A stretch of 47,001 bases of DNA from positions 55,245 to 102,245 of the forward strand of contig PBFG01000006.1 of the NCBI GenBank assembly GCA_002718585.1, given 5' to 3'. Each line of letters begins with the position of its first letter. Positions within the stretch are counted from its first letter, which is position 1. The stretch is from Fidelibacterota bacterium (GTDB taxonomy: Bacteria; Fidelibacterota; Marinisomatia; SCGC-AAA003-L08; D37C17). This document shows, one piece after another, positions 31,696 through 40,248 of the stretch. The notes below the pieces were generated by a model. That model was not told the DNA's origin, searched no databases, and saw nothing but the letters and a program-made list of their open reading frames with translations. Both the position numbers and the translations under genes were made by a program.

Positions 31696-32032
31696 AGTAA
31701 TATATGATGGTCAGTGTTCATTTTGCACTGATGTTAAAAACATACTAGAATTTTTAGATTTTAATAAAAATTTTGAGTGGATTAAATCAGAATTATATAT
31801 TAAAAATCCAAATAGAATATCCTGCATAAATAATGAGCTTACAGATAAGACGATCATTCTAATAAAACCTAATAATCAATTACTTACTGAATTCAAAGCA
31901 TGTAGATATATCATGAGTAGAATTGTATTTTTTTACCCAATAATAGTATTTATGTATATTCCATACATAAGTAATTTTTTAGGTACGGCTATTTATCGAA
32001 TTGTCTCAAAAAGACGCAAATGTAAAACTTAG
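31685..32032 (+). CDS. DCC-family (DUF393) thiol-disulfide oxidoreductase-like protein
   Basis: A 115-residue protein opening VIYDGQCSFCTD, the DGxCxxC signature of the DCC/DUF393 family, with C11 and C14 as a thioredoxin-like redox pair. A second conserved block is the SxA/G-C-R-Y part (FKACRYIMSRI), followed by a hydrophobic segment and a basic end with SKRRKC. It overlaps the symporter gene by 11 bases and so belongs to the TPP-controlled operon. The role in thiamine use is unknown. Its stop overlaps that of the convergent TonB receptor by four bases. Confidence 0.82.
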   Translation: MKNKVIYDGQCSFCTDVKNILEFLDFNKNFEWIKSELYIKNPNRISCINNELTDKTIILIKPNNQLLTEFKACRYIMSRIVFFYPIIVFMYIPYISNFLGTAIYRIVSKRRKCKT

Positions 32033-34509
32033 AATTCTATTATAAATCCACCAACTGGAATTTGCTTATATTGGTAAGACATTTCATATCTTCCATCATC
32101 ATAATATACTCGCTCCCATTCATTGTCTCTATCAAATACATTTTGAATATCAATAAATGTTGTAATATTTATTTTTTCTAGACTAAATCTCCTCATAAAC
32201 ATTATATCAAACCTTGCATAATAATTTTCTCTTGATGAATTCAACTCTACATTTGGATCTATATACCATCTTCTAACTTCAAAATTATATCTTTTGGGTG
32301 TATATGGGAGACCATCTGATATCCTATACCTAAAACTTATCTCATATTGATCAGAAATCATAAGAGGCATAAATGATAAATATGAAAAAATTTTCTTTTC
32401 CTTTAGGGACTCATACCACTTTCTCCCTTTGAAAAAAAATTTATAACCACCTACAATCGTAAGAGAATTTCTGCTATCAAAATCCCATAAATAAAACTCG
32501 TTAGGGTTCTCATTTTCTCTAAACTTTTTTGCTTTAGACTCAGAAAATGAATAACTAAATGTCCCATGCCAATTGTTAGAGAATTTTTTTTGAATAAATA
32601 ATTCTACACCATTTGAAAAACCTTCTCCAATAGGTAAAAAATTAAAACCTCCATCAAAATCATCTTCAATATCATCTGTAGTAATATCTGATTCTAGTAT
32701 AGATCTTTTATAATATTTTTTATTATAGAACTCTAGGGTTAGGCGTGTATCATCGTTTAAATATTGTTCCAAGCCAACTACATATTGCTCTGTGAATGAA
32801 TTATCTAATATTTGCTCATTATCTGGACTCATCAACTTCCAATAATTAGGAGTTTGGTAATAAACTCCAAATGCAAAATTTATTTTACTTAATGGCGATA
32901 AAGAATAGGACACTCCAAATCTAGGTGAAAATTTAGATGTACGATTTATTTTTATACTATCATATCTGAAACCTAAAGTAAACTCAAATTTATTAAAAAA
33001 ATACTTTAGTTGATTATAAAATGCATATTTCATCAATGAATCATTATTATAATTTCTAAAACCAACAATAGGAAAAATAGATTCGTCATTTTCAATGAAA
33101 TTATTTAAACTGTCTCCATATTCAGGGTATATTTCAATAAATTCATGATAATCATTAAAATCATTTAATGAAATTGAGTCAGGAATTGAGGGATAATCAT
33201 AAAAATATACATCATCATCATCTAGAATTTCATTGAGTTTAAATTCTCCTTTCTTAATATTAATACCAGAGGAAAATTCTATATTTTCTTTTAACTTGTA
33301 AATTATATCCCATTTTAAAAAATAATCAGACTCAATATTATCCCTTGTGAAAAAAATATCCTCTCCTTGATCATCATTTGTAAATACTTCTGCATCCCAT
33401 TTTGTGGAAGATTTTCCAAAAGAAAATAATTGGTACCCTTTTGATGAAAATAAATTTTTATAAGTAATACCATAAGTATATTGATATCCTTCATATCTAA
33501 CGTTTTCAGCACCATACATGTCTGGTCTATTTTCATCTAAAATATCAATTTTATCAATTCCACCTAAAAAATTAAAATAAATTTTATTTTTTTTATTTAT
33601 TAGGTATGATATCTTGTGCTGTGAGTTAGAATATTTCGGCACTGAAGTTAGTCCGGCTGATTCAATTAAATTATCTATGAAAGATTTTCGGTAACTTGAA
33701 ATGAAAGATATTTTATTTTTGATGATGGGTCCCTCAATTAAGAATCCCAAACCAGCCATACTCATTTCTATATCATAATCAGTATTATTAAAATTTCCTT
33801 CTCTTAAGCTCATATTCATGACTGAAGACTGTTTATCACCATATCTAGATGAGAATCCCCCAGCATAAAAATCTATTCGTTCTACGAACTCTGTATTAAT
33901 CAAATTAACAGGTCCACCTCCTTTGCCAACAAATCCAAAATGATTTGGATTTGGTATATCTAAATGATCCATAACAAATAAATTTTCACCAGGTCCCCCA
34001 CCTCTAACTATAATTTCATTATTTTGGTCTGTATCAGTAACCACTGCTGGTAGAGAATGAGTCATCATCTGTATATCGTATGCACCAACAGGATCTGAAC
34101 GAATTTCTGCTCTATCAATAGAATGACTAGAAACAATACCATCCTTAGCTTTATCAAAATATCCATCAGTTACCAAAACTTCACTACTGCTGAGCACAGT
34201 AGATTCTAATAAAAATTTTACATAAGTTTGTCTATCAGAATTAACATTTATATTAACTTTTGAATGGGATTTATAACCAATAACAGAACCTATTATAGTG
34301 TAATTTCCAAATTCAATATTTTTAAGGAAAAATAAACCATTATCATCAGTGTAGGTTCCTTGTTTGGTTTCTTTAATTAATACATTTGCTCCTGAAATTG
34401 GACTATGGGTGACTTTGTCAATAACATATCCTGTAATTATCCCTGATGAGGCTAAATAAAAATTATTAATAAATAATAAAAAAAATATCAATCTAGTATA
34501 AAAATACAT
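32029..34509 (-). CDS. TonB-dependent receptor with N-terminal carboxypeptidase-regulatory-like domain
   Basis: An 826-residue outer-membrane receptor. After a signal peptide (MYFYTRLIFFLLFINNFYLA) residues 22-105 form a CarboxypepD_reg domain (GIITGYVIDKVTHSPISGAN, GTYTDDNGLFFLKNI, YTIIGSVIGYKSH). The plug follows with VVTDTDQNNEIIVRGGGPGE and VERIDFYAGGFSSRYGDKQS. The barrel contains acidic insertions such as EILDDDDVYFYDYPS. The ligand is unknown. It is transcribed away from the carotenoid operon and shares its upstream region with it, hinting at common control. The start overlaps a possible small gene. Confidence 0.9.
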   Translation of the reverse strand: MYFYTRLIFFLLFINNFYLASSGIITGYVIDKVTHSPISGANVLIKETKQGTYTDDNGLFFLKNIEFGNYTIIGSVIGYKSHSKVNINVNSDRQTYVKFLLESTVLSSSEVLVTDGYFDKAKDGIVSSHSIDRAEIRSDPVGAYDIQMMTHSLPAVVTDTDQNNEIIVRGGGPGENLFVMDHLDIPNPNHFGFVGKGGGPVNLINTEFVERIDFYAGGFSSRYGDKQSSVMNMSLREGNFNNTDYDIEMSMAGLGFLIEGPIIKNKISFISSYRKSFIDNLIESAGLTSVPKYSNSQHKISYLINKKNKIYFNFLGGIDKIDILDENRPDMYGAENVRYEGYQYTYGITYKNLFSSKGYQLFSFGKSSTKWDAEVFTNDDQGEDIFFTRDNIESDYFLKWDIIYKLKENIEFSSGINIKKGEFKLNEILDDDDVYFYDYPSIPDSISLNDFNDYHEFIEIYPEYGDSLNNFIENDESIFPIVGFRNYNNDSLMKYAFYNQLKYFFNKFEFTLGFRYDSIKINRTSKFSPRFGVSYSLSPLSKINFAFGVYYQTPNYWKLMSPDNEQILDNSFTEQYVVGLEQYLNDDTRLTLEFYNKKYYKRSILESDITTDDIEDDFDGGFNFLPIGEGFSNGVELFIQKKFSNNWHGTFSYSFSESKAKKFRENENPNEFYLWDFDSRNSLTIVGGYKFFFKGRKWYESLKEKKIFSYLSFMPLMISDQYEISFRYRISDGLPYTPKRYNFEVRRWYIDPNVELNSSRENYYARFDIMFMRRFSLEKINITTFIDIQNVFDRDNEWERVYYDDGRYEMSYQYKQIPVGGFIIEF

Positions 34510-34779: not shown

Positions 34780-36255
34780 ATGAAAGAGATTACAATTATA
34801 GGTGGTGGTTTATCAGGATTAGCAGCATCATGCTATCTTGCTAAATCTAATTTTAAAGTAAAAATTATCGATAAAAATGAAACTATGGGCGGAAGATTAT
34901 CCTCTTTTGAGATAGACGGTTTCAAGTTTGACTATGGCCCATCATGGTACTGGATGCCAGATGTGTTTGAAGATTTTTTCAATGAATTCGATAAAGAAGT
35001 ATCAGATTATTATGATTTAAAAAGGTTAAATCCATCTTACAAATTTTTTTTCGAAAAAAGTAACCACATAATACCTTCAAAATTTTCAAACATAAAAAAA
35101 GAATATGAAAAAATAGAAAATAATTCCTCAATTAAGCTTGATGAATTCATTAATAGAGGTGAAAAAAAATATAAAATTTCAATGAATGGTTTCATTGATT
35201 TACCCAATTTGTCATTTAGGGAGTATTTTTCCATAGATGTTCTTAAATATTTTTTTTCATTAGATTTTTTTATATCACTTAGAAAACATATAAAAAAATA
35301 TTTTAGCAATACAAAAATCATTCAGATGCTTGAGTTTCCTTCAATGTTTTTAGGTGGAACACCAAGTAATACGCCAGGTTTATATAGTCTTATGAATTAT
35401 GCTGACTTAAAAGGTGGTACTTGGTATCCAATGGGAGGTATGATTGAAGTAACAAAAGCATTCACAAATTTAAGTTTGGAACTTGGAGTTGAGCATATAA
35501 ATAATATTGAAATTAAAAAATTAATGATTGATAATTCAAGTATAGTTGAAGCAAAAAGCTCTATTGGTAAAAATTTCAAATCTGATTTTTTCCTTTGTTG
35601 CGCTGAATATCCCTTTGTTCAAAATAATTTAATTGAAAAAAAATATCGAACTTATTCCAGAAATTATTGGTCAAAAAGAAAAGTTGCACCTTCTGCACTT
35701 ATATTTTATTTAGGCTTATCAGAAAAAATCAAAAATTTTGAACATCATAATTTATTTTTCGATAATGATTTTGATAAACATTTAGATGAAATTTTTGTTC
35801 AAAAAAAATGGCCTGAGGATCCTTTATTTTACGTTTGTTGCCCAAGCAAGACTGATTCTTCAACAGTTCCATCACCTAAGCATGAAAATCTGTTTATACT
35901 AGTCCCTATTGGTTCAGGATCTTTAGATGAAGAAAAAATACGAAATATTTATTTTAAAAAAATATTAAGAAGAATAGAATCAAAAGTTAAACAAAAAATT
36001 GAAGATAAAATTATATTTAAAAAATCTTTTTGTGTTAATGACTTTAAAAATAGATATAATGCATACAATGGTAATGCATACGGTCTAGCAAATACTCTAT
36101 TCCAAACAGCAATATTTAAACCTAAAATGAAAGATGCTAAAATAAAAAACCTCTATTATTCTGGTCATTTTACAGTACCTGGACCTGGACTTCCTCCAGC
36201 AATAATATCAGGAAAAATTGCATCAAAACAAATAATAAAGGATGCTCAAATATGA
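34780..36255 (+). CDS. crtI: Phytoene desaturase (CrtI type)
   Basis: CrtI converts phytoene to lycopene through successive FAD-dependent desaturations at the membrane. The protein has 491 residues. The FAD-binding site is ITIIGGGLSGLAASCYLAKS (4-23) followed by IIDKNETMGGRLSSF (29-43). The C-terminal signature is YYSGHFTVPGPGLPPAIISG near 456-480. KFDYGPSWYWMP and GTPSNTPGLYSLMNYADLKG are conserved. It is the first gene of the carotenoid operon and overlaps crtB by four bases. Desaturation to four double bonds (lycopene) is inferred from the downstream cyclase. Confidence 0.94.
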   Translation: MKEITIIGGGLSGLAASCYLAKSNFKVKIIDKNETMGGRLSSFEIDGFKFDYGPSWYWMPDVFEDFFNEFDKEVSDYYDLKRLNPSYKFFFEKSNHIIPSKFSNIKKEYEKIENNSSIKLDEFINRGEKKYKISMNGFIDLPNLSFREYFSIDVLKYFFSLDFFISLRKHIKKYFSNTKIIQMLEFPSMFLGGTPSNTPGLYSLMNYADLKGGTWYPMGGMIEVTKAFTNLSLELGVEHINNIEIKKLMIDNSSIVEAKSSIGKNFKSDFFLCCAEYPFVQNNLIEKKYRTYSRNYWSKRKVAPSALIFYLGLSEKIKNFEHHNLFFDNDFDKHLDEIFVQKKWPEDPLFYVCCPSKTDSSTVPSPKHENLFILVPIGSGSLDEEKIRNIYFKKILRRIESKVKQKIEDKIIFKKSFCVNDFKNRYNAYNGNAYGLANTLFQTAIFKPKMKDAKIKNLYYSGHFTVPGPGLPPAIISGKIASKQIIKDAQI

Positions 36256-37088
36256 AATTAATTTTTGACAACTTATCAAGTAAAATTTCAAAACTTACGA
36301 TAAATGAGTATAGTACCTCTTTTTCATTTAGCACTAGACTTTTATCAAAAAAAATTAGATCTGAAATTTATGCTATATATGGATTAGTCAGATTAGCTGA
36401 TGAAATTGTTGATTCTTTTCATCAATACAATCAAAAAGAATTACTTGATAGATTAAAAGCAGATTATGAATTTGCAATTAAACATAAAGTTAGTACAAAC
36501 CCCATACTCAATTCTTTTCAAAGAGTTTATCACAAATATAATTTTGAACCATATCTCATAAAAAAATTTTTTAATAGCATGGAGATGGACTTAGATAAAA
36601 AAAATTATAATGACAAGCTTTATAATGAATATATACATGGTTCTGCTGAAGTAGTTGGCCTCATGTGCTTAAAAGTTTTTGTAAAAGGTGATAATGTAAA
36701 ATATAATACGTTAAAATCTAGTGCAATGAAACTTGGGTCTGCATTTCAAAAAGTTAATTTTTTGAGAGATCTCAAGTATGATAATCACGAATTAGGAAGA
36801 ACTTATTTTCCAAATATTAATTTTAATAATATTAATAATGATGAAAAATTAGCTATAACTAGCGATATTAAAAATGATTTTAATATTGCTTTTCAAGGAT
36901 TAAAAGAGCTTGATAATGATTCCTTTTTAGGTGTCTATGTTGCTTACAGATATTATAGAGAGCTTCTAAAGAAAATTGAAAAACTAAGTATTAAAGAGAT
37001 ACAAAATAAAAGAATAAGAATAAACAATGTCAAGAAACTAAGTTTAATGATTAATTCTGCTATTAAAATAAATTTAAGTCTAATCTAA
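36252..37088 (+). CDS. crtB: Phytoene synthase
   Basis: CrtB condenses two geranylgeranyl diphosphates to phytoene. The 278-residue protein carries both aspartate-rich Mg-binding motifs: RLADEIVDSF with D50 and D54, and LRDLKYDNHELGRTYFP with D173 and D177. YIHGSAEVVGLMCLKVF and GSAFQKVNFLRDL are typical. It overlaps crtI by four bases (ATGA) and the next gene by one. GGPP must come from a synthase encoded outside the window. Confidence 0.95.
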   Translation: MKLIFDNLSSKISKLTINEYSTSFSFSTRLLSKKIRSEIYAIYGLVRLADEIVDSFHQYNQKELLDRLKADYEFAIKHKVSTNPILNSFQRVYHKYNFEPYLIKKFFNSMEMDLDKKNYNDKLYNEYIHGSAEVVGLMCLKVFVKGDNVKYNTLKSSAMKLGSAFQKVNFLRDLKYDNHELGRTYFPNINFNNINNDEKLAITSDIKNDFNIAFQGLKELDNDSFLGVYVAYRYYRELLKKIEKLSIKEIQNKRIRINNVKKLSLMINSAIKINLSLI

Positions 37089-37624
37089 TGAATAAGGTCA
37101 TTTTAGTAAACAGAAAAAACAAGAAAATAGGATTAGAGGATAAGCTTATTGCTCATCAAAAAGGTTTGCTCCACAGAGCATTTTCAATATTAATTTTTAA
37201 TAGCAAAAAAGAATTCTTACTTCAGAGGAGGTCCTATAATAAATATCATACCCCTGGACTTTGGACAAATACTTGCTGCAGCCATCCAAAAGAAAATGAA
37301 TCATATGATGAAGCTATTCATAGAAGATTGCATGAAGAAATGGGAATGCAGTGCAAACTTGAACAAAGTTATAGTTTTATTTATAAATCAAAGCTTAGCA
37401 AAAATTTAATTGAACATGAACACGATTCAGTATTTATTGGTCAAACTAATGATGTGCCTATCATTAATAAAAATGAAGTGAGCGAATTTAGATATATAAA
37501 TTTAGATGAACTAAAGACTGAATTAAAAATTAAACCAAATAGTTTCACTCCTTGGTTTAAAATGATAATTAATAATTTAGACGACACATTTTTTGAATCA
37601 AAAAATTTTAAAATTAATGCATAA
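37088..37624 (+). CDS. idi: Isopentenyl-diphosphate delta-isomerase, type I
   Basis: Type I Idi interconverts IPP and DMAPP, supplying the starter of prenyl chains. The 178-residue Nudix-fold protein has HRAFSILIFNSKKEFLLQRR, the catalytic Cys region TNTCCSHP, the Nudix-like RRLHEEMGMQCKLE, and HEHDSVFIGQ with the metal-binding Glu/His. Its presence inside the carotenoid operon suggests it is expressed to raise precursor supply for carotenoids. It overlaps crtB by one base and crtZ by eight. Confidence 0.95.
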   Translation: MNKVILVNRKNKKIGLEDKLIAHQKGLLHRAFSILIFNSKKEFLLQRRSYNKYHTPGLWTNTCCSHPKENESYDEAIHRRLHEEMGMQCKLEQSYSFIYKSKLSKNLIEHEHDSVFIGQTNDVPIINKNEVSEFRYINLDELKTELKIKPNSFTPWFKMIINNLDDTFFESKNFKINA

Positions 37625-38048
37625 TTTTCTTATGCACTTATTAATCATTTTTTTATCAATTATCGTAATGGAAATAGTTGCTATTTTTGCTCACAAATAT
37701 ATAATGCATGGTCCTGGGTGGTTTTTGCATAAATCTCATCATAAAAAACATAATAACAAATTTGAACTTAATGATTTATATTTCATTTTTTTTTCGATTC
37801 CATCCATTTATTGTATTTATTTTGGATTCTCAAATCAAAATTTTATTTTAACTTCTATAGGTATTGGAACTCTTTGTTACGGACTGATTTATATTATTCT
37901 TCATGATATTGTTGTTCACAAAAGATTTGGAATAAGAATTAAGTCAAAAAATTATTATTTAAGAAAAATTAAAAAGTCCCATCTGATTCATCATTCTAAC
38001 CAAGAAAAAAAAGATGCAAGTAATTTTGGTTTTATTTCATTCTTATGA
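37617..38048 (+). CDS. crtZ: Beta-carotene 3-hydroxylase (CrtZ)
   Basis: A 143-residue diiron membrane hydroxylase that adds hydroxyls to the beta-ionone rings, turning beta-carotene into zeaxanthin. I start at ATG 37617, overlapping the idi stop as ATGCATAA; an earlier TTG adds nothing conserved. All histidine clusters are present: H26 and H31 in AHKYIMHGPGWFLHKSHHKK with H38, H41 and H42; HDIVVH (H96, H101); and SHLIHHS (H122, H125, H126). Four hydrophobic segments are expected. Confidence 0.92.
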   Translation: MHNFLMHLLIIFLSIIVMEIVAIFAHKYIMHGPGWFLHKSHHKKHNNKFELNDLYFIFFSIPSIYCIYFGFSNQNFILTSIGIGTLCYGLIYIILHDIVVHKRFGIRIKSKNYYLRKIKKSHLIHHSNQEKKDASNFGFISFL

Positions 38049-38719
38049 CCTACTACTACAAAATACTTTTCCTTTCTTTTATTATCCCTTTTATATTTTC
38101 TTTTCATAATAAAATAAACTTCCATAAAAACTTTAAATTTATTATTATTTCAATTCCATTATCTTCTATATTTTATATTATTTGGGATATTATTTTTACT
38201 GAAATGGGCGTATGGGGATTTAATAAAGATTATGTATCCACATATATAATTAACCTACCCGTTGAGGAATATTTATTTTTTCTTATTATTCCTTTCTGTT
38301 GTCTATATACTTACTATGTTATAAATAAATATAAAGCATATCTTGTAAAGAATTTTGATTGGAAAAAATTTCAATTTTTATTTATTCTAATTCTATTTGT
38401 AACATTGGTATTAAATCTCTCAAAAATTTACACCTTAGTTTGCTTTTTATCGTGTATTCTTATTATTTTTGTATCCAACAAATTTAATATAAATTATAGC
38501 AAATCATCGTTTCATAATACATTTATCTTAATAACTATTCCATTTTTAATTGTAAATGGTGCTCTTACTGGTTCTTTCTATAACCAAACCGTAGTTTGGT
38601 ATAATAATGACATGATACTTGGACTAAGAGTTTTTACAATACCAATTGAAGACTTTGTTTATTCTTATCAACTTCAACTTTTAAATTTGTTAATATATAG
38701 TAAAATAAAAAGAATATAA
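38045..38719 (+). CDS. crtYcd: Lycopene beta-cyclase, fused CrtYcd type
   Basis: A 224-residue polytopic protein containing both halves of the heterodimeric-type lycopene cyclase. The first half has GVWGFNKDYVSTYIINLPVE (55-74) with PVEE at 72-75. The second has VVWYNNDMILGLRVFTIPIE (183-202) with PIED at 200-203. About seven hydrophobic segments are present. The order crtZ then crtYcd, overlapping by four bases, means lycopene would be cyclised and then hydroxylated. It is unrelated to the flavoprotein CrtY. Confidence 0.88.
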   Translation: MTYYYKILFLSFIIPFIFSFHNKINFHKNFKFIIISIPLSSIFYIIWDIIFTEMGVWGFNKDYVSTYIINLPVEEYLFFLIIPFCCLYTYYVINKYKAYLVKNFDWKKFQFLFILILFVTLVLNLSKIYTLVCFLSCILIIFVSNKFNINYSKSSFHNTFILITIPFLIVNGALTGSFYNQTVVWYNNDMILGLRVFTIPIEDFVYSYQLQLLNLLIYSKIKRI

Positions 38720-39319
38720 ATGAGACTAACTTCTTTATATATATATATTTTATTTTCATTAATTTTATCTATTGATATCTCATATATTGACAATGACGAA
38801 AATTGGAAACAGTTACAAAACAAAGAAATAAAAATTTATCATAAAATAATAAATGACCAGCCATATTGTAAAGCATCAAAAATTTTTAGTTTTAACTCTT
38901 ATGAGATAAAATCTATTCTCGATGATAAGAAAAATTATCCAAAAAACTTTAAAAGAATAATGTTTTGTGATTCAATTAATAAAGATGTTGTTCATATTGG
39001 GGTTAAACTCCCATTTCCTTTTAATCCTAGAGATTACGTAGTTAAATATAAATATATTGAAAAAAATAATAAAGAATACTATATATACTCCAGTATTCAA
39101 GAAACAACTTTTAAAAATACGAGCAGTTTTATAAGACTTCCAAACGCATCAGGTATTTGGTTAATGGAACCAATAAATAAAAAACAAGCAAAACTAACTT
39201 ATATGTGGCAGGGAGAATTATTAGGCAATTTCCCCAGTTGGATTTTACATAGAGTCTGGAAAGCACAAGGAAATGAACTATTAACTGAACTTGAAAAAGC
39301 TTTAAATAATTTAAATTAA
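38720..39319 (+). CDS. Exported START-like lipid-binding protein
   Basis: A 199-residue protein immediately after the crtYcd stop. Residues 1-18 are a likely signal peptide (MRLTSLYIYILFSLILSI). The remainder follows the START fold: ENWKQLQNKEIKIYHKII, LPFPFNPRDYVVKYKYIE at 97-114 (the conserved PxxxRDxV block), SGIWLMEPINKKQAKLTYMW at 144-163 and a long C-terminal helix from LLGNFPSWILHRVWKAQGNE. START domains bind sterols, phospholipids or, in animals, carotenoids. Its place in the carotenoid operon suggests a carotenoid carrier in the periplasm; that is inference. Confidence 0.75.
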   Translation: MRLTSLYIYILFSLILSIDISYIDNDENWKQLQNKEIKIYHKIINDQPYCKASKIFSFNSYEIKSILDDKKNYPKNFKRIMFCDSINKDVVHIGVKLPFPFNPRDYVVKYKYIEKNNKEYYIYSSIQETTFKNTSSFIRLPNASGIWLMEPINKKQAKLTYMWQGELLGNFPSWILHRVWKAQGNELLTELEKALNNLN

Positions 39320-39336: not shown

Positions 39337-40248
39337 ATGAAAATAAAGAATAAATTAAAATTAGCTCTTGATTGGACACCTAATATTAATCATATTGGTT
39401 TCTTCATTGCTTGTGAAAAATTACTTTATGAAAAGTATAATCTTAAGGTTGAAATAGAAGATCCATCTTTTGATAATTACAAATTGACTCCAGCAAAAAA
39501 ACTTGAAAATGGTTTTGTAGATTTTGCTCTTTGCCCCCTAGAGAGTATAATAAGCTATAGATATAAAGAAAATCCAATTAACTTTCTTGCAATTGCTAAA
39601 CTGTTTGATTCAGATTTAAGTGCGATAGCTACGAATACTGATAAAATTAAATCACCAAAAGATTTAGATGGTAAGTCATATGCATCTTACAATGCTAGAT
39701 ATGAAGACAAAATAATTTGTGAAATGGTGAAGAATGATGGAGGAAGAGGAAATATTGATTTTGTTTATCCAGAAAAACTTGGTATTTGGAATACTCTCGA
39801 AAATATGAAATATGACTCTACATGGATCTTCTTAAATTGGGAAGGAGTTCAAGCTGAATCTAACAAACTAAATTTAAAATACTTCAAAATGAAAGATTAT
39901 AATATCCCCTACTCATACTCTCCTGTGATTACAGCTAGGGAAGATTGCATAAGAAATAAATTTTCTATCTATAAAAGGTTTTTATCTGCGACCAAAGAGG
40001 GATTTATCTTTGCAAAAAAAAATAAGCAAGAATCCATAGAAATTTTATCAAAATTCATTCCTTCTCACGAAAGAAATATAGATCTAAAAAAATCATTATC
40101 AATGACAAATGATAATTTTAAAGAGAAAGACTGGGGAATAATGCATAAAAAAAATATTAAAAATTTTACTGATTGGCTTATCAAAATGAAATTAGTTAAT
40201 AAAAATTTGGACTATTCAAAACTTTTCACAAATACCTTAATTTCTTAA
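39337..40248 (+). CDS. NMT1/THI5-like protein without signal peptide
   Basis: A 303-residue protein with the NMT1/ThiY fold: LALDWTPNINHIGFFIACEK at 9-28, a DFALCPLESIISYRYKENP segment, KSPKDLDGKSYASYNARYED and GIWNTL. These match ThiY-type precursor-binding proteins and fungal HMP-P synthase. Unlike binding proteins it has no export signal. It lacks the CCCFC iron site, and by alignment C66 and S70 replace the Lys62 and His66 of yeast Thi5. So neither role fits cleanly. No ABC permease is adjacent. It follows the START gene by 17 bases and ends overlapping the convergent KARI-like gene by 12 bases. Confidence 0.7.
   Translation: MKIKNKLKLALDWTPNINHIGFFIACEKLLYEKYNLKVEIEDPSFDNYKLTPAKKLENGFVDFALCPLESIISYRYKENPINFLAIAKLFDSDLSAIATNTDKIKSPKDLDGKSYASYNARYEDKIICEMVKNDGGRGNIDFVYPEKLGIWNTLENMKYDSTWIFLNWEGVQAESNKLNLKYFKMKDYNIPYSYSPVITAREDCIRNKFSIYKRFLSATKEGFIFAKKNKQESIEILSKFIPSHERNIDLKKSLSMTNDNFKEKDWGIMHKKNIKNFTDWLIKMKLVNKNLDYSKLFTNTLIS

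Follow-up and report, generated by a model that had tools for sequence, protein, structure and literature searches.

Results

The crt operon and its START gene

The stretch of DNA analysed here (the window; 47,001 nucleotides) contains a crt operon with the gene order crtI-crtB-idi-crtZ-crtYcd-START. The features on which the analysis draws are the following.

32029-34509, minus strand: TonB-dependent receptor, divergent neighbour of the crt operon (PF07715, PF13715)
34780-36255, plus strand: crtI, phytoene desaturase, near the CrtID bifunctional desaturase model (TIGR02734 over its cut-off; NF058655, 634.7)
36252-37088, plus strand: crtB, phytoene synthase (PF00494, E 1.3e-40)
37088-37624, plus strand: idi, isopentenyl-diphosphate isomerase type 1 (NF002995 and TIGR02150, over cut-off)
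37593-38048, plus strand: crtZ, beta-carotene hydroxylase-like, FA_hydroxylase family (PF04116, E 6.6e-10)
38045-38719, plus strand: crtYcd, fused lycopene cyclase (PF18916, E 1.1e-26; TIGR03462 twice)
38720-39319, plus strand: START-domain protein gene, the subject of this study (PF01852; AlphaFold2 model; fold matches all START)
38720-38785, plus strand: putative signal peptide or hydrophobic N-terminal segment, about residues 1-22 (hydropathy; outside the START core)
39337-40248, plus strand: NMT1/THI5-like gene, possible read-through seventh gene (PF09084, E 2.1e-33)

The first-pass annotation described the START gene as the sixth member of a tightly spaced crt operon, and this description holds, the first base of the gene lying directly after the crtYcd stop codon. 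The NMT1/THI5-like gene is located 17 bp downstream of START and runs in the same direction, which makes it uncertain that the operon ends with START; in those relatives that were readable, this downstream gene does not adjoin crt, and it is not regarded as part of the START/crt system. Because an unrelated THI5-like gene occupies the same operon tail, the position of START is, when taken alone, weak evidence for a role in carotenoid transport. A promoter scan of the operon returned sites no commoner than in shuffles, and the few terminator-like matches all lay inside coding regions.

The crtZ gene is syntenic in four relatives, with 59-62% identity. With NF058655, the model of the bifunctional phytoene desaturase/3,4-desaturase CrtID, CrtI scored 634.7, just short of the cut-off of 640, and this near match makes zeaxanthin uncertain as the sole end product; the pigment of the operon may differ from plain zeaxanthin, which is the product that we infer.

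The START protein and its N-terminus

The open reading frame at 38720-39319 starts with ATG, encodes 199 amino acids and has exactly the coordinates first noted. The protein matches PF01852 with an E-value of 1.2e-13 (51.3 bits versus a cut-off of 22) and covers profile positions 17-203 of 207. Its AlphaFold2 model, for which an alignment of 43 sequences was the input, reached a pLDDT of 89.5 and a pTM of 0.83 and displays the complete START topology, that is, a helix-grip fold with a curved sheet and a long C-terminal helix at residues 173-198, in keeping with the START helix originally proposed; START domains in the PDB were the best fold matches, with E-values down to 4e-11. All 14 of the 14 family-invariant residues in the family alignment are retained both in this protein and in the second crt-linked START described below, which speaks for both being maintained, working proteins. 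The crt-linked gene is a real, maintained gene within a real crt operon.

The hydrophobic segment that precedes the START core contains one Arg and has an 11-residue hydropathy peak of 2.66 at residues 8-18, comparable to that of other exported proteins of the window, and a peak of at least 1.87 was observed in 36 of 39 START family members. The segment is of low confidence in the model, as a signal peptide would be, and no clean AxA cleavage site was seen when the N-terminus was judged by hydropathy. The proposed signal peptide is therefore putative, an export-type hydrophobic N-terminus in which no clear cleavage site is visible. This family-wide N-terminus fits export, and together with the fold and the family setting it suggests that the gene product is very probably some kind of START-type lipid carrier that is exported.

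The crt operon in related genomes

Within the GTDB family of the window genome (G000), five genomes carry this crt operon (G000, G015, G016, G017 and G237), and START follows crtYcd in two of them, G000 and G016. The latter belongs to a second genus and has the same gene order, with START overlapping crtYcd by 4 bp; START is absent from the crt operon in the other two crt-bearing genomes of that genus. In another family of the phylum, the crtI-crtB-crtZ-crtYcd genes lie near a rhodopsin gene, without START (L115, L123).

The co-occurrence of START and crt genes in related genomes, as raised in the first-pass annotation, was not observed as a genome-wide association: of 237 genomes from the phylum, 55 had START homologues and 19 had CrtYcd, and 4 genomes had both, versus 4.4 expected. 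A more sensitive profile search detected START in 68 of 245 genomes; in the other large family (f16) it revealed no further START among crt-bearing genomes, and no genus there has both the START cluster and CrtYcd. Against the objection that orthologues occur without carotenoid genes, the START family overall does not stand, but the crt-linked lineage does, with both of its two members located in crt operons. The phylum also contains a second, distant START-like class (E 1e-12 to 1e-4; G201, G022:C46, G011:C24, G200, G067 and others).

In each of the five genomes, the TonB-dependent receptor adjoins the crt operon (the window; L030, L054, L055, L211), the window copy being 53-56% identical to its syntenic counterparts, and a MerR/B12-binding (CarH-like) regulator lies between receptor and operon in four of the five, the window being without it. 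The constant presence of this divergent gene would be in keeping with a model in which START takes up external lipids or carotenoids together with the receptor; we nevertheless regard such uptake as highly improbable, since the receptor is present also where START is absent and the carotenoid is made by the operon itself.

On a contig other than that of the crt operon, C21, the window genome carries a proteorhodopsin gene followed by a blh-like gene (L207, 6269-7972); of the relatives with crt genes, G016 and G017 also have both. Judging from this gene pair, part of the beta-carotene of the window genome is probably converted to retinal. The same pair supports the idea that START is a carotenoid chaperone that supplies clients in the inner membrane, such as CrtZ, Blh or proteorhodopsin, with beta-carotene or zeaxanthin and does not deliver these to the outer membrane. 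This idea is improbable, because Blh and the crt enzymes act in or at the inner membrane, where an exported carrier would be unneeded, and because relatives have the pathway without START. Moreover, in the rhodopsin of G000 a Phe aligns with the proteorhodopsin Phe, at what is presumably the carotenoid-fenestration site, and an open carotenoid fenestration would accordingly not be expected; from this residue, a carotenoid antenna on the G000 proteorhodopsin was judged unlikely.

Conserved residues, fold likeness and the ligand

P98, R104 and Y106 of the PxxxRDxV block are invariant across the START family, and the alignments place an equivalent RD motif in PCTP, STARD10, STARD3 and the Xanthomonas START. 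Since the RD motif is common to such varied proteins, PxxxRDxV marks a START domain and not a carotenoid binder; the conserved block reported earlier is real, but as a general START feature it has no carotenoid specificity. The fold matches (TMq 0.64-0.79) comprise StAR, STARD10, ACOT11, STARD4, CERT, PCTP, STARD3 and BmCBP, and zeaxanthin-bound BmCBP (7ZVR, TMq 0.79) is among the top matches by TM-score but not by E-value. Residues D162, S206 and W232 of BmCBP have been probed by mutation in PDB entries. STARTs for sterol, phospholipid, ceramide and carotenoid match about equally, and we therefore rejected fold likeness as evidence for carotenoid binding. In the profile comparison, the nearest sequences to the crt-linked START were 3QSZ, PCTP and STARD10, with STARD3 weaker; kinship to STARD1, STARD3 or BmCBP was no closer than to other STARTs, and BmCBP was absent from the profile matches listed. 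Neither fold nor sequence singles out carotenoid as the ligand.

A pocket too small for a C40 molecule was initially put forward as a refutation of the carotenoid-carrier proposal, which proved unsound. The 20 Å tunnel of STARD3 cannot enclose lutein, which is about 30 Å long (PMC4973302), and BmCBP leaves a portion of its carotenoid outside (PMC10147662). Since the known carotenoid-binding STARTs enclose their ligand incompletely, pocket length cannot decide the matter for a C40 ligand, and on the grounds of this literature it was rejected as a refuting test.

The START family in a sulfotransferase and outer-membrane-barrel cluster

The window genome contains a second START gene on contig C22 (G000:C22:22616-23143), the product of which is 30% identical to the crt-linked START. 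This gene is flanked by a sulfotransferase on one side and on the other by a barrel-like protein, after which comes KASIII (L028, G000:C22:15000-30000), and it belongs to a sulfotransferase-START-OMP cluster from which the window copy, located after crtYcd, is excluded. A contig profile scan with a single START protein found no loci, and the scan repeated with a START alignment found 57. In the survey of START loci, which comprised 54 START rows from named MAGs, nearly all Neomarinimicrobiota, START lies directly after a sulfotransferase in 52; the two exceptions are a contig end and a distant proteobacterial homologue. In 43 rows START is followed at once by the barrel gene; in a further 10, a gene for a secreted arylsulfotransferase-like protein intervenes. 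The conserved cluster, which occurs in many Neomarinimicrobiota (L028, L135-L189), also has a divergent arylsulfotransferase-like secreted protein. The barrel (mean pLDDT 78) is predicted to be an outer-membrane protein of the porin/AlgE-like kind and has Phe as its C-terminal residue. Of the 29 loci for which both flanks were complete, 17 contain MMPL/HAE3-type RND pumps and 17 contain LolA-like proteins. One START of the sulfotransferase cluster (G004:C72:7845-8408, L029) has an in-frame TGA, which reflects either a pseudogene or an assembly error.

Such components would be expected in a system that exports lipids to the outer membrane, and the ancestral neighbourhood of the family fits periplasmic lipid transport to that membrane. 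We found no description of the components together in the open-licence papers searched; the sulfotransferase-START-barrel cluster appears to be a lipid export system that is as yet undescribed.

The two crt-linked STARTs group as a single separate lineage in the protein tree, with a support of 100/99, and a recent duplication of the C22 START was rejected (AU p 0.00026). A single lineage that is not a recent C22 copy indicates that one paralogue was recruited before the two genera split or was passed between them; the crt gene tree gave no resolution between a START that was ancestral and then lost and a START gained between lineages.

The nearest rival of the carotenoid-carrier reading is that the exported START carrier keeps its ancestral ligand, a phospholipid or a product of the sulfotransferase/KASIII cluster, and does not bind carotenoid; its crt position would then reflect co-regulation (for example, by light or membrane remodelling) or chance capture. 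We consider this quite possible. The parent family is tied to a sulfotransferase and an outer-membrane barrel and not to crt, the nearest characterised relatives bind phospholipids, START is patchy in crt operons, and a THI5-like gene also lies in the operon tail. Against this, START has the same position in two genera and is tightly coupled to crtYcd, and the crt pair is altered at otherwise conserved family sites (D96 to K/N, M97 to L, E68 to D, and W190 to E/S). Furthermore, G000 and G016 already hold the ancestral copy, which suggests a new role for the second.

Discussion

Several known systems resemble the window START in part. The STAR-related lipid transfer protein of Xanthomonas axonopodis (3QSZ), a bacterial START, is the best profile match (E 2-4e-8) and matches the model over the whole domain (TMq 0.73; 15% identity in the fold alignment); its crystallised piece begins at residue 25, a starting point compatible with removal of a leader, but unlike the window START it has no carotenoid operon shown. 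PCTP (STARD2) and STARD10 are lipid carriers with a like START block (PFP..RDY in PCTP), but they are eukaryotic and intracellular, with phospholipid ligands. Silkworm BmCBP and human STARD3 share the fold (TMq 0.74-0.79) and bind zeaxanthin or lutein, in line with the initial statement that START domains bind carotenoids in some animals; BmCBP is an animal START that binds zeaxanthin and delivers it to membranes (PMC9952040). Both are, however, animal proteins, and in sequence they are no closer kin of the window START than other STARTs. Finally, the BstABC proteins of Methylococcus capsulatus have been proposed to form a route from the inner membrane through the periplasm to the outer membrane for an isoprenoid lipid, sterols (PMC10942540), but their folds are unrelated to START, BstB being a periplasmic substrate-binding protein.

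We tentatively favor the reading in which START is a periplasmic lipid carrier that came from an envelope-lipid cluster, fell under crt control and helps to move the carotenoid of the operon from the inner to the outer membrane. Under this reading, START would be a soluble periplasmic carrier of a hydrophobic ligand, with an ancestral family role in the envelope-lipid cluster (sulfotransferase, START, barrel and KASIII, in many cases joined by LolA-like carriers and an MMPL/RND pump). A single capture would have placed one paralogue at the end of the crt operon, in the window's family of Neomarinimicrobiota, and would be co-expressed with carotenoid synthesis; xanthophyll would then be picked up at the periplasmic face of the inner membrane, in its outer leaflet, partly shielded in the START cavity and released to the outer membrane. 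The more specific version, in which a carrier evolved from the sulfotransferase/KASIII/MMPL/LolA/barrel cluster shuttles xanthophylls between the two membranes, appears rather unlikely.

A carotenoid carrier is favored by the confident START fold with 7ZVR among its matches, the same place after crtYcd in G016, the single separate lineage of the crt-linked pair, the hydrophobic N-terminus, the retained invariant residues, the envelope-lipid family setting and the animal START precedent. Against it are the presence of START in only two of five operons, the lack of a phylum-wide association and a sequence nearer to phospholipid-binding STARTs. The periplasmic zeaxanthin carrier of the first-pass annotation is thus sustained as an exported-looking START in a crt operon, which recurs in G016 and belongs to an envelope-lipid family, but not in its specific ties to carotenoid. 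Recruitment of START as a pigment carrier from another lipid job is plausible, resting on two genomes and on position.

Carotenoids occur in the outer membranes of several Gram-negative bacteria. We know of no established periplasmic carotenoid carrier, and a limited literature search found none. The crt-linked START is a small, soluble candidate for such a carrier, and the paralogue in the sulfotransferase cluster of the same genome provides a built-in control. The conserved sulfotransferase-START-barrel cluster is a stronger discovery than the carotenoid-carrier idea, and it points to a lipid export route, apparently undescribed, in a widespread marine phylum.
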